A stretch of DNA of 64,000 nucleotides from Halocatena salina. GTDB taxonomy: Archaea; Halobacteriota; Halobacteria; Halobacteriales; Haloarculaceae. Both the position numbers and the translations under genes were made by a program. Where the stretch lies: assembly GCF_023115355.1 (NCBI RefSeq), contig NZ_CP096022.1, forward strand, positions 1 through 64,000, in the 5' to 3' direction. Shown here piece after piece: positions 27,105 to 30,099 of this stretch. The notes under the pieces were generated by a model. That model was not told the origin of the DNA. It saw only the letters and a list, made by a program, of their open reading frames with translations, and did not search any database. How positions within the stretch are numbered: position 1 is the first letter of the stretch; each line of letters starts with the position of its first letter.

Positions 27105-27998
27105 TTATTTTCCGAGGTTGAGCGATGTTATACCGACGAACAAGACCACACCGATACTCAGCACTGTAAACGAGAGCGATCCGAGGGCAAAGCACGCATG
27201 AACCGTCAGTTGGCCGGCTTTGAGATCGGCCATCCCTCTCGATCGGAGATTTACCGAATCCCACCAGTCGACAAGGATCCAGTATCCATCGCCTCGTACC
27301 AAGGGATTGAGCGAGCAGAGGATTCGGACGTATCCGAACAGTACGACCACACTTACCACGGACCCTCCGGGTATGAGGAGTGAGATCCCGGCCAGAACCA
27401 GACATTGACAGAGATCGATCAACGGCCCAGCGATGCTGATCCAGATGCGGACGCTCTTGGGACAGCGCCAAGCCCCGTTGGTGGTCGTGACGAGCGCCGG
27501 GAACACGCCATTGAGCCTCCGTAACCGGATCGAGGGATCGAAGTACGGCCGCGCAGCGAGATAATGGCCTGCTTCGTGGATCACTGCCATCACACCGAAC
27601 ACCGGGATGGACAGTAGAAGCTGTTCGATCGTTCCCCCCGTCTCGAGCGCCGGGACGGTCTCAGGAGCGTCAATCAACCGATATCCGACGTAGACGGTTA
27701 CTAGGGTGAACACGATCCCGAACGCTAGCAAGCGCGGCCAGAGAGTGATCCCTGCTGGCGTTGGAAGCTCCTTGACTGGCGTTTCGTCCCGAATATACTC
27801 CTGCTCGTGGAGCACAGAGAGCGCCCTCTGTTCGCCTTCTGTGAGTGTCTCGATCCCTCGATCGCCCCGGGCGACGGTCTTGAGTGTCTCCAGGAAGGTT
27901 GGGTCGATCCGCTTGTAGTCGCCGTTTTCGGTACGGAGCCAGTACAGGTTCTCCGTGCTTCCCCACGTGAATCCGATGTTCGAACGATCACCACTCAT
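27105..27998 (-). CDS. Membrane M50 peptidase with PqqD-like N-terminal domain (YydH-like)
   Basis: Multi-pass membrane zinc peptidase. HEAGH (His141, Glu142, His145) lies in a membrane helix, and NPLVRGDGYW (Asp237) supplies the third ligand region typical of 'putative peptide zinc metalloprotease' proteins such as YydH. Residues 18-72 (YWLRTENGDYKRIDPTFLET through LHEQEYI) resemble a PqqD/RRE-type peptide-recognition domain. The gene overlaps the ATP-grasp gene by ATGA, so both are co-translated. In known RiPP loci such proteins cleave or export modified peptides. Assignment of protease family is strong; the RRE-like reading is inference. Confidence 0.82.
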   Translation of the reverse strand: MSGDRSNIGFTWGSTENLYWLRTENGDYKRIDPTFLETLKTVARGDRGIETLTEGEQRALSVLHEQEYIRDETPVKELPTPAGITLWPRLLAFGIVFTLVTVYVGYRLIDAPETVPALETGGTIEQLLLSIPVFGVMAVIHEAGHYLAARPYFDPSIRLRRLNGVFPALVTTTNGAWRCPKSVRIWISIAGPLIDLCQCLVLAGISLLIPGGSVVSVVVLFGYVRILCSLNPLVRGDGYWILVDWWDSVNLRSRGMADLKAGQLTVHACFALGSLSFTVLSIGVVLFVGITSLNLGK

Positions 27999-28909
27999 TC
28001 GAGGAACTCAGCGAGGTGACCTGCAACGTTCGTTCCTGCCCGCTCGTCGAATGTCGCGAACATCGGCGACGGGTTGGCTTCGAGGATCCGAAAGCTATCC
28101 TCCGTGACGATGATGTCGACGCCGGCGAAAGCGAGTCCTAAACAGTCCGCTGCACGACTGGCAGCCGCTGCAACGGGGGCAGGCGGATCGATCGTCTCGA
28201 CCTCGTGAGGACCCATCCGATAATCGAGATTATCGCTTAGGATGTGAGCTGTTGCGACGATGTCCCCATCGACGACGAACAGCCTGTAGTTCGTCCCGTC
28301 GAGGCGCCGTTGGAATTGGACGGGAGCGTTGCTCAGTCGCTCCAAACGGTCCGGTTCGAGGTCTTCGGCAGTTACGATCCGAGCGTGGCCACCACCAGCG
28401 ACTGGTTTGTATATCACCTCATCCACCTCCTCGACGAATTCCATGGCTGCCGTGGGGTCGTTCGTCGTCAGCGTCTTTGGAACGGGTAACCCAGCGTCTG
28501 CGAATCGTGCGAGCTGGTACGGTTTCAACCTGTGAACCGCCATCGTCTGAGGAGCGTTTACGATAGGGATACCTCGGTCGTCCAGATATCTCAACACCGA
28601 CCCGAGGAGTCCCCGATACTCGGTGAGTTGATTGACCAACGAATACGGACGCGTATCGAGTTCGTCGGCGAAGTCAGAATTTCGGAGATCGAATCCGATC
28701 CGTCGGACGTAGACTGCTGACAGCGAATCAGGCTGGATCGGCTCCGAAACTGTCGTACGGATCCCTGATGCGACGTCGAATGAAAGAGGAACTTCCCCCG
28801 GCCAGTGGTCCGTGTCCCAGACGGCCCATTCAGTTCCCCGTGCATCGAGTTCCGTGGCTACTGCGCGGAGTTCCCGGTCCTCGGATGGTCCGATGAGCGC
28901 AACTGTCAT
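27995..28909 (-). CDS. ATP-grasp ligase resembling graspetide (MvdD-type) maturases
   Basis: A 304-residue ATP-grasp enzyme. The N-terminal domain has AVYVRRIG (65-72) and NQLTEYRGLLGSVLRYLDDR, matching the xWYRR and following helix of graspetide ligases. ATP-binding residues are visible: Lys168 (VIYKPVAGGG), Gln200/Arg201 and Arg209 (VQFQRRLDGTNYRLFVVDGD), Asp265 (AGVDIIV), and Glu277/Asn279 (ILEANPSP). Graspetide ligases link Ser/Thr or Lys side chains to Asp/Glu within a precursor peptide. A RimK-like ligase of another pathway is the main alternative. The small peptide gene upstream and the coupled M50 peptidase support the RiPP reading. Confidence 0.82.
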   Translation of the reverse strand: MTVALIGPSEDRELRAVATELDARGTEWAVWDTDHWPGEVPLSFDVASGIRTTVSEPIQPDSLSAVYVRRIGFDLRNSDFADELDTRPYSLVNQLTEYRGLLGSVLRYLDDRGIPIVNAPQTMAVHRLKPYQLARFADAGLPVPKTLTTNDPTAAMEFVEEVDEVIYKPVAGGGHARIVTAEDLEPDRLERLSNAPVQFQRRLDGTNYRLFVVDGDIVATAHILSDNLDYRMGPHEVETIDPPAPVAAAASRAADCLGLAFAGVDIIVTEDSFRILEANPSPMFATFDERAGTNVAGHLAEFLE

Positions 28910-28977
28910 TTATAATGAATTTGATATATACTGCATCATATAATTAATGCAACGGTGAATATGACAGTTTAGTAGAT

Positions 28978-29097
28978 CTAAATAAGAGGGAGAGACAGAT
29001 CACCGACTTCTTCTCCCATCGCCATCGTTGTCACTCCTATAGGTGTCGCATTTTCTCTTTCCTCTAGCTCTTCGATGAAGTGTACGTCTTCAGTCAT
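28978..29097 (-). CDS. Candidate RiPP (graspetide-like) precursor peptide
   Basis: A 39-residue peptide beginning MTEDVHFIEELEERENATPI and ending with GVTTMAMGEEVGDLSLPLI. The N-terminal half is acidic and helical, like a leader. The C-terminal half offers Thr18, Thr23, Thr24 and Ser36 as possible hydroxyl donors and Glu29, Glu30 and Asp33 as carboxyl acceptors. A TATA-like box 24-39 bases upstream fits a leaderless start at 29097, so a longer in-frame opening upstream (to 29343) is rejected. The gene lies 68 bases before the ATP-grasp ligase on the same strand. Identification as precursor is inference from position and composition. Confidence 0.6.
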   Translation of the reverse strand: MTEDVHFIEELEERENATPIGVTTMAMGEEVGDLSLPLI

Positions 29098-29120
29098 CGG
29101 CAGTACAATCGAATAGTTGA

Positions 29121-29136
29121 TATTATATAATATTTT
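29121..29136 (-). promoter_or_regulatory. TATA-like promoter of the RiPP-like operon
   Basis: On the minus strand the AT block AAAATATTATATAATA lies 24-39 bases upstream of the peptide ATG at 29097, the usual spacing for a leaderless haloarchaeal transcript. The divergent regulator gene begins 300 bases further on. Confidence 0.5.
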
Positions 29137-29433
29137 CTGTTTTATTCGGGGTATAGACTCACTATGAAAATAATATTTGTTACCATTCGATAATATATGG
29201 GGATATACGAAATCTTCGACAGGTTGTTGATTTTCGTTAGCTGTGTTCGTCACAGGTCGTGATCGATCCCCGTGTCGACTCGTGTGAATGATCTCTGTAT
29301 ATTGTATATTTCTGATTTGCATGTGTAAATATACTGGTGGCAAATATAAGAGAACGGGAGGTACAAGGTTATTCTAGCCCATTAACCGATAATTGACGAC
29401 AAGAGATTTCTTTCTTGACCGCTTTCCATATTT

Positions 29434-30099
29434 ATGACATCGATTGCGGAGTTTACGATTCCTGCCGAAGAGTTCGCGTTGTGGACGACACTCAAACGCC
29501 TACCAGACATCGAAATCGAAGTTGATCGCGTCGTCGCTCACGATATGTCCCATGTTCTTCCGTTCGTCTGGGTGTCGTACGAGGAGAACGAGGAACTATC
29601 AACGGTTCTTGAAGACGATCCTAGCGTAGCGGAGTGTGAACTGCTTGCCGAATACGAAGACGAGCAGTTTTATCACATGACGTGGGCTGCTGACGTTCAG
29701 GTTGTAGGATACATGATCGTCGAGCAGAAGGCAACTGTCCAGCGGGCCATCGCACGTGATCGGGCGTGGCATCTACAGGTGTTGTTTCCCGATCGCAACG
29801 GAATTTCAGCGGTGAACGATTACGCCCAAGAACACGATCTCTCGTACGATCTTAGACGCCTCTACGATGTTGACGCGGTTCGTCGCGTTCGCTATGATCT
29901 CACGAGTAATCAACACGAAGCACTCATTAAAGGACTCGAATCCGGGTATTACGACATTCCACGGGAGGCCCAATTGGCGGATATTGCCGACGATCTCGGT
30001 ATCTCTCATCAGGCACTCTCCGAACGCTTTCGTCGAGCGACCCGGCGTCTCATCGAGAACGCTCTTTTGGTCGAGGACGATAACAGTCCCCGACACTGA
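29434..30099 (+). CDS. Bacterio-opsin activator-type HTH regulator
   Basis: A 221-residue regulator. The C-terminal domain (SNQHEALIKGLESGYYDIPR, then LADIADDLGISHQALSERFRRATRRLIENAL) is the HTH_10 DNA-binding domain found in haloarchaeal bacterio-opsin activator proteins. The N-terminal 150 residues form the usual ligand or protein interaction domain without a PAS or GAF signature. It is divergent from the RiPP-like operon across a 336-base region and is a plausible regulator of it, though this is only positional. ATG at 29434. Confidence 0.88.
   Translation: MTSIAEFTIPAEEFALWTTLKRLPDIEIEVDRVVAHDMSHVLPFVWVSYEENEELSTVLEDDPSVAECELLAEYEDEQFYHMTWAADVQVVGYMIVEQKATVQRAIARDRAWHLQVLFPDRNGISAVNDYAQEHDLSYDLRRLYDVDAVRRVRYDLTSNQHEALIKGLESGYYDIPREAQLADIADDLGISHQALSERFRRATRRLIENALLVEDDNSPRH

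Follow-up and report, generated by a model that had tools for sequence, protein, structure and literature searches.

Gene sets for ring-locked peptides of the graspetide kind are known best from bacteria. The closest described system is plesiocin, the group 2 graspetide of Plesiocystis pacifica (precursor PsnA2, ligase PsnB), whose repeats each bear two esters (PMC12291112; PMC9484694), set in ring-within-ring hairpins (PMC13097080). Bacterial group 2 graspetides are usually accompanied by an NHLM-type transporter, often peptidase-bearing, a trait that is not a strict definition of the group (PMC13097080), and protease inhibition is the activity of every graspetide characterised up to 2022 (PMC8939145). 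Archaeal graspetides have been placed in group 36, found only in Thermoprotea with a chromosome-segregation-like partner and no M50 protease mentioned (PMC13097080). Nor are graspetides listed with the abundant classes in an antiSMASH survey that covered 11,644 genomes of archaea (PMC12144867).

The locus analysed here has in common with group 36 a graspetide synthetase in an archaeon, and differs from it in host lineage, partner and protease. With plesiocin it shares a single ligase, 35% identical over its full length and similar in fold; unlike plesiocin it is archaeal, has one core where plesiocin has four repeats (some relatives carry a second half-motif), belongs to a family with precursors of 39-50 aa, and has an RRE-M50 protease rather than an NHLM/C39 transporter. 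Its protease resembles those of the daptide (NF041824) and YydH/LiaK/EpeP (NF058609) families in being an M50 enzyme of a RiPP cluster with an HExxH motif, the similarity extending over residues 95-261, but it falls below both cut-offs, has an N-terminal RRE and is partnered by an ATP-grasp enzyme, in a cassette that, unlike theirs, lacks both radical SAM and daptide enzymes. The best NCBIfam model for the ligase, at full length, is that of actinobacterial tgmA/tgmB systems (TIGR04187, GRASP_SAV_5884; ATP-grasp ribosomal peptide maturase), though at 128.1 bits against a cut-off of 350; tgmB clusters carry the methyltransferase tgmC and no M50. A TTxxxGEE core shared with tgmA was considered and rejected, three tgmA peptides being wholly different in leader and core. 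None of graspetides, plesiocin, RiPP-cluster M50 proteases and RREs is in itself new; the literature that we searched described neither a haloarchaeal PsnB-type family nor a graspetide ligase with an RRE-M50 protease, though haloarchaeal graspetides may already be listed in supplementary tables.

A three-gene locus in Halocatena salina

The window, a stretch of 64,000 nucleotides (NZ_CP096022.1, positions 1 to 64,000), holds three minus-strand genes, identified from the list of open reading frames and the sequence, with the following features:

27105..27998, minus strand: RRE + M50 intramembrane metalloprotease, 297 aa (profile scores; AlphaFold model, pLDDT 87)
27279..27308, minus strand: NPLVRGDGYW, protease residues 231-240, where M50 proteases have their second metal-ligand region (alignment)
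27564..27578, minus strand: HEAGH zinc-binding motif, protease residues 141-145 (alignment; fold match to RseP/SpoIVFB/mjS2P)
27783..27986, minus strand: N-terminal RRE-like domain, about residues 5-72 of the protease (VIA-align 2 on the AlphaFold model)
27995..27998, minus strand: ATGA overlap of ligase stop and protease start (sequence)
27995..28909, minus strand: PsnB-like ATP-grasp graspetide synthetase, 304 aa (PDB profile search, Foldseek, TIGR04187 below cut-off)
28978..29097, minus strand: graspetide precursor gene, 39 aa, ATG start (open reading frame; leave-one-out HMM; homologous precursors at 18 further loci)
29008..29031, minus strand: predicted core TTMAMGEE, precursor residues 23-30, with two Thr acceptors and two Glu donors (aligned to TTLAIGE of PsnA2, PDB 7drm chain E)
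29056..29085, minus strand: conserved leader motif VHFIEELEER, precursor residues 5-14 (alignment, PsnA2 comparison)
29123..29132, minus strand: putative TATA-like element (tattatataa), at -35 to -26 relative to the precursor's ATG (sequence)
27279..29348, no strand assigned: segment missing from the sister species G004, comprising most of the protease and all of the ligase and precursor (blastn/tblastn)

A preliminary description of this DNA had proposed three such genes on one strand, a 39-residue peptide behind a TATA box and coupling of ligase to protease through ATGA, and all of these are present, the TATA box in the form of a TATA-like element. AT-rich elements also precede the precursors of most relatives. 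The gap between precursor and ligase, checked for a terminator or attenuator, contains only a weak hairpin (z -1.5). Directly upstream of the precursor, and divergent from it, lies a gene for a Bat/HTH_10 regulator (29434-30099).

Ligase, precursor and predicted product

A profile of eight haloarchaeal ligases, run against all PDB sequences, placed PsnB, the plesiocin macrocyclase (7drm-7drp), at the top with 250 bits, above PruB (84), AMdnB (76), CdnC (75), MdnC (73), RimK (63-70) and LysX (52 bits). PsnB is also the top Foldseek match to the predicted structure of the window's ligase (pLDDT 89; E 9.6e-30, TM 0.89). In a maximum-likelihood tree where PsnB is the sole sequence of its kind and the PDB reference sequences are partial, rebuilt from printed alignments, PsnB stays with the haloarchaeal ligases, though on a long branch, while 11 RimK-like haloarchaeal proteins form a group of their own (support 100/97), as do enzymes of the MdnC/TgmB type (100/100). 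Assignment of the ligase to the graspetide-synthetase lineage is supported, in agreement with the preliminary description, and can be narrowed to the PsnB/plesiocin type. That description had also pointed to a YVRR motif as a mark of graspetide maturases; the motif is there (residues 67-70), but it is not diagnostic, because at this position VYVDS or AYVHV is found in haloarchaeal ligases at a greater distance. The G-x-D-x-R of PsnB and most relatives reads G-T-N-Y-R in the window (28283-28297, residues 205-209), and this replacement of D by N is a clade trait, since N is common to the intact relatives L067 and L068, where the sequence is G-E-N-Y-R. Viral and phage collections yielded no close relative, phage matches being RimK-like at 25-27%, and anti-phage defence families yielded no match.

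The precursor, read from 29097 to 28978, is MTEDVHFIEELEERENATPIGVTTMAMGEEVGDLSLPLI. Searched as a bare peptide against NCBIfam and Pfam it gave nothing useful (triculamin, 13.4 bits). A leave-one-out profile, built on eleven precursors from elsewhere and without the window's peptide, picked out the peptide's frame at E=3e-13 when run on all 1,799 stop-to-stop segments in the window, with the next segment at E=1; the window's precursor is beyond chance. H6, F7, L11, E13 and R14 are invariant in the 12 clade-A precursors, which also have a TT..A.GE pattern that the distant clades do not. The window's TTMAMGEE provides the arrangement of Thr/Ser and Asp/Glu able to form side-chain rings, and, unlike the cores of relatives, is not followed by a further C-terminal segment (TxxxC.ETGC or CPEKCW).

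When the haloarchaeal precursor profile was searched against the PDB (177,635 distinct chains, E-value limit 10), the sole match was PsnA2(14-38), FIEDLGKVTGGKGGPYTTLAIGE, the peptide crystallised with PsnB. At E=1.4 the match is not significant alone, because a 25-residue chain is too short; it is telling, though, that the one PDB sequence matched should be the cognate substrate of PsnB, the enzyme closest to the window's ligase. The two peptides have in common a leader of the form FI/V-E-D/E-L and a TTxxxxEE-type core, reading FIEDL-x11-TTLAIGE in PsnA2 and FIEEL-x11-TTMAMGEE in the window, and the first T of TT stands 16 positions after the F of FIE[DE]L both in PsnA2 and in the window's FIEELEERENATPIGVTTMAMGEE. 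We infer that the precursor is modified. Links T23-E30 and T24-E29 are predicted because of the analogy with plesiocin, and would give a bis-lactone hairpin with a computed two-ester mass change of -36.02 Da, from 4315.06 to 4279.04 Da. Our leading guess, by the same analogy, is that the product would be a serine-protease inhibitor, acting for example against halolysin-type extracellular proteases.

The RRE-M50 protease and a proposed pathway

Both motifs that the preliminary description had read in the protease, HEAGH and NPLxxxDGYW, are present, and in 18 protease homologues H141, E142 and H145 of the one and P232, G236, D237 and G238 of the other are invariant. Its designation as YydH-like stood as to the M50 match but not as to the closest model, for the daptide_HExxH model scores slightly better (44.6 bits, cut-off 300) than YydH/LiaK (28 bits, cut-off 225), both far below cut-off; the Pfam M50 match, at 17.1 bits, is below its cut-off of 27.2. 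Weak matches to the daptide M50 model are seen in every one of the 18 homologues, and to the YydH/LiaK model in 14. Foldseek alone found nothing significant for the predicted structure of the protease, and VIA-align 2 applied to the Foldseek candidates gave matches: residues 118-295 of the AlphaFold model resemble the site-2 proteases RseP (Z 8.1), SpoIVFB (7.2) and mjS2P (6.6). The protein has the HExxH, the NPxxxxDG and the membrane helical core of an M50 site-2 protease.

RREs occur in RiPP enzymes. The PqqD-like N terminus proposed for the protease was not found by Pfam, which gave no match for a PqqD-like or RRE domain there, but it reappears in the AlphaFold model, where the N terminus models as an RRE, a winged fold of three strands and three helices like PqqD and lasso B1; it is closest to the lasso-peptide B1 RRE 6jx3 (Z 6.6, rmsd 2.1 over 66 residues), followed by TbiB1 (Z 5.3) and the PbtF RRE (Z 4.9). 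These Z values are moderate, and what speaks for the modelled architecture is that the best matches of its two halves are M50 proteases and RREs respectively.

Gene structure, homology, co-occurrence, co-divergence and predicted folds make it probable that the three genes produce a plesiocin-type graspetide by the following scheme, in which substrate relation, ring positions, cleavage, export and target are our proposals. The ligase would recognise the leader HFIEEL and, with ATP, activate the core Glu side chains and join them to Thr side chains, so that two nested esters, T23-E30 and T24-E29, would close a hairpin with loop MAMG. The RRE of the protease would hold the precursor while the M50 active site cuts it, the whole protein standing in for the C39 peptidase/transporter of bacterial group 2 graspetides and perhaps aiding the peptide's exit from the cell; a part in release, as for EpeP of epipeptides (PMC10885120), may thus fall to the RRE-M50 protease too. 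A search for the Peptidase_C39 domain found none in ten carrier genomes (G000 and nine others), the same search being positive in 8 of 14 control genomes. The M50 protease is likely to be the replacement for C39 as leader remover, because no C39 was found in the ten carriers and an RRE-M50 gene is present at nearly every complete locus.

Distribution, variation and alternative readings

The ligase is present in 14 of 391 haloarchaeal genomes and the protease subfamily in 13, all of them among the 14 and with the two genes adjoining (Fisher p=2e-23, a value overstated since the genomes are related). An intact M50 gene lies beside the ligase at 17 of the 21 loci examined. Elsewhere, the genome is in fragments and the M50 is on another contig (L034/L074), the M50 is at the genome's second locus (L035/L036), it is truncated to 170 aa with the catalytic part gone (L037, 7293-7805), or a distant ligase is without one (L073). 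Precursors with an HF[VI]E.L..ER-like leader were found at 19 of the 21 loci, those beside the distant ligases L036, L066 and L069-L072 having been recognised by eye and being less certain. A six-frame search of the 391 genomes for the precursor family gave seven strong matches, each beside a ligase of PsnB-like type, and a decayed remnant in G246; two weak matches in G126 and G116 were dismissed as lying inside unrelated ORFs. Precursor and ligase divergence are correlated (Mantel r=0.90, a value reached in 0 of 5,000 permutations), precursor similarity tracking ligase identity as expected of enzyme and substrate. Among the loci examined only the window has its precursor on the ligase's strand and upstream of it; the head-to-tail operon order is therefore the window's own, the precursor being divergent or convergent at most loci. 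At the single annotated locus that was inspected, the annotation omits the precursor gene. Thus neither of the outcomes that the preliminary description had set against a graspetide, ATP-grasp/M50 pairs consistently devoid of a small upstream peptide or a ligase within the RimK clade, was found.

In the sister species G004 the flanks are kept (Bat regulator 81% and downstream gene 70% identical) with only 511 bases between them. In this gap (L117, G004:C6:200000-206000) the M50 gene survives as its 3' end, 37 residues that are 68% identical (E 3e-11) and are followed by a frame break. The cassette was therefore once in G004 and has been deleted, since the M50 3' end remains between the same flanking genes. 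G246 has a decayed orphan precursor, DDVHSVEDLEERSNAPPMATVLAPAKKG (G246:C1:3839680-3839757; L102/L105), and no ligase or M50 match in its genome. Presence is patchy and losses are recurrent, as in other bacteriocin-like traits.

The wider family is varied. L034 (5210-6051) has three unlike precursors in a row: TTQACYETGC with a Gly-rich tail; CTTANHFEESDYDGW; and ITQACYETGC with TTFAIGEE, which suggests a single ligase serving several cores. Precursors at L035 (7234-7335) and L065 (4389-4490), HFVEDLNESDVE...TPITWFGG, have a short conserved core and no TTxxxxEE. At L070 (5688-6644; Halorussus salilacus plasmid NZ_CP099994.1) there is a second, divergent ATP-grasp copy in tandem, in which the conserved KP (VVYKPV) reads QP; because of this change the copy is probably inactive or a partner protein.

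Four other readings of the window's locus were weighed. That the ligase is a RimK-type amino-acid ligase, attaching glutamate or some other amino acid to a protein, with the small ORF incidental, is suggested by its best Pfam domain, RimK (48 bits), and by a rimK_fam score of 81 bits; TIGR04187 and PsnB score far higher, the tree sets RimK-like proteins apart, and the conserved leader and the Mantel correlation tie the ORF to the ligase, so that we give this reading hardly any weight. A modified signalling or self-sensing peptide, released by the M50 protease to act on the neighbouring Bat/HTH_10 regulator and not as an inhibitor, is unlikely but the least so of the four. M50 proteases release signals in other systems, and the regulator gene is divergent from the precursor; the same regulator is however present in G004, and because it is kept there without the cassette it is independent of the peptide.

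The M50 enzymes of pearlin clusters, TglG and TmoG, are carboxypeptidases (PMC10885120), and by this precedent the window's protease might trim a single C-terminal residue from a precursor serving as a reusable scaffold, not as a leader-core graspetide. The short and variable precursor C-termini of the wider family would suit such a role, but TTMAMGEE is internal to the peptide and matches PsnA2, the cassette has no other pearlin enzymes and the closest model is the daptide M50, which together leave it very improbable. Slightly less improbable, and still quite unlikely, is that the window's copy is decaying and its product no longer made: its core is without the relatives' C-terminal segment, its ligase has N at the DxR position, and losses or remnants are seen in G004 and G246, yet all three reading frames and the HExxH and NPLxxGDG residues are intact, and the N is shared with the intact L067 and L068. 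We retain the plesiocin-type graspetide as the reading of the locus.

One chemistry should not be assumed across the whole family, because the precursors of the distant ligases (L035, L036, L065, L066, L069-L072) are without TTxxxxEE; examples of their cores are TPITWFGG, TYYTGGCIAYC and CHGDFWRTTYFCLELA. We put forward tentatively, as somewhat doubtful, that haloarchaea have a separate graspetide lineage, with an RRE-fused intramembrane protease in exchange for the C39 transporter-peptidase and with ligases that have moved to cores other than TTxxxxEE; if true, this would imply ring types so far undescribed. Nearly all archaeal RiPPs characterised to date are lanthipeptides, for which expression in haloarchaea succeeded when E. 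coli did not serve (PMC12144867); the present family comprises at least 21 haloarchaeal loci and 21 precursors. It links PsnB, a macrocyclase understood at the structural level, to a membrane protease fused to an RRE, and makes testable both how a graspetide loses its leader in the absence of a C39 peptidase and what role ring-locked protease inhibitors may have in brines, where secreted serine proteases are common.
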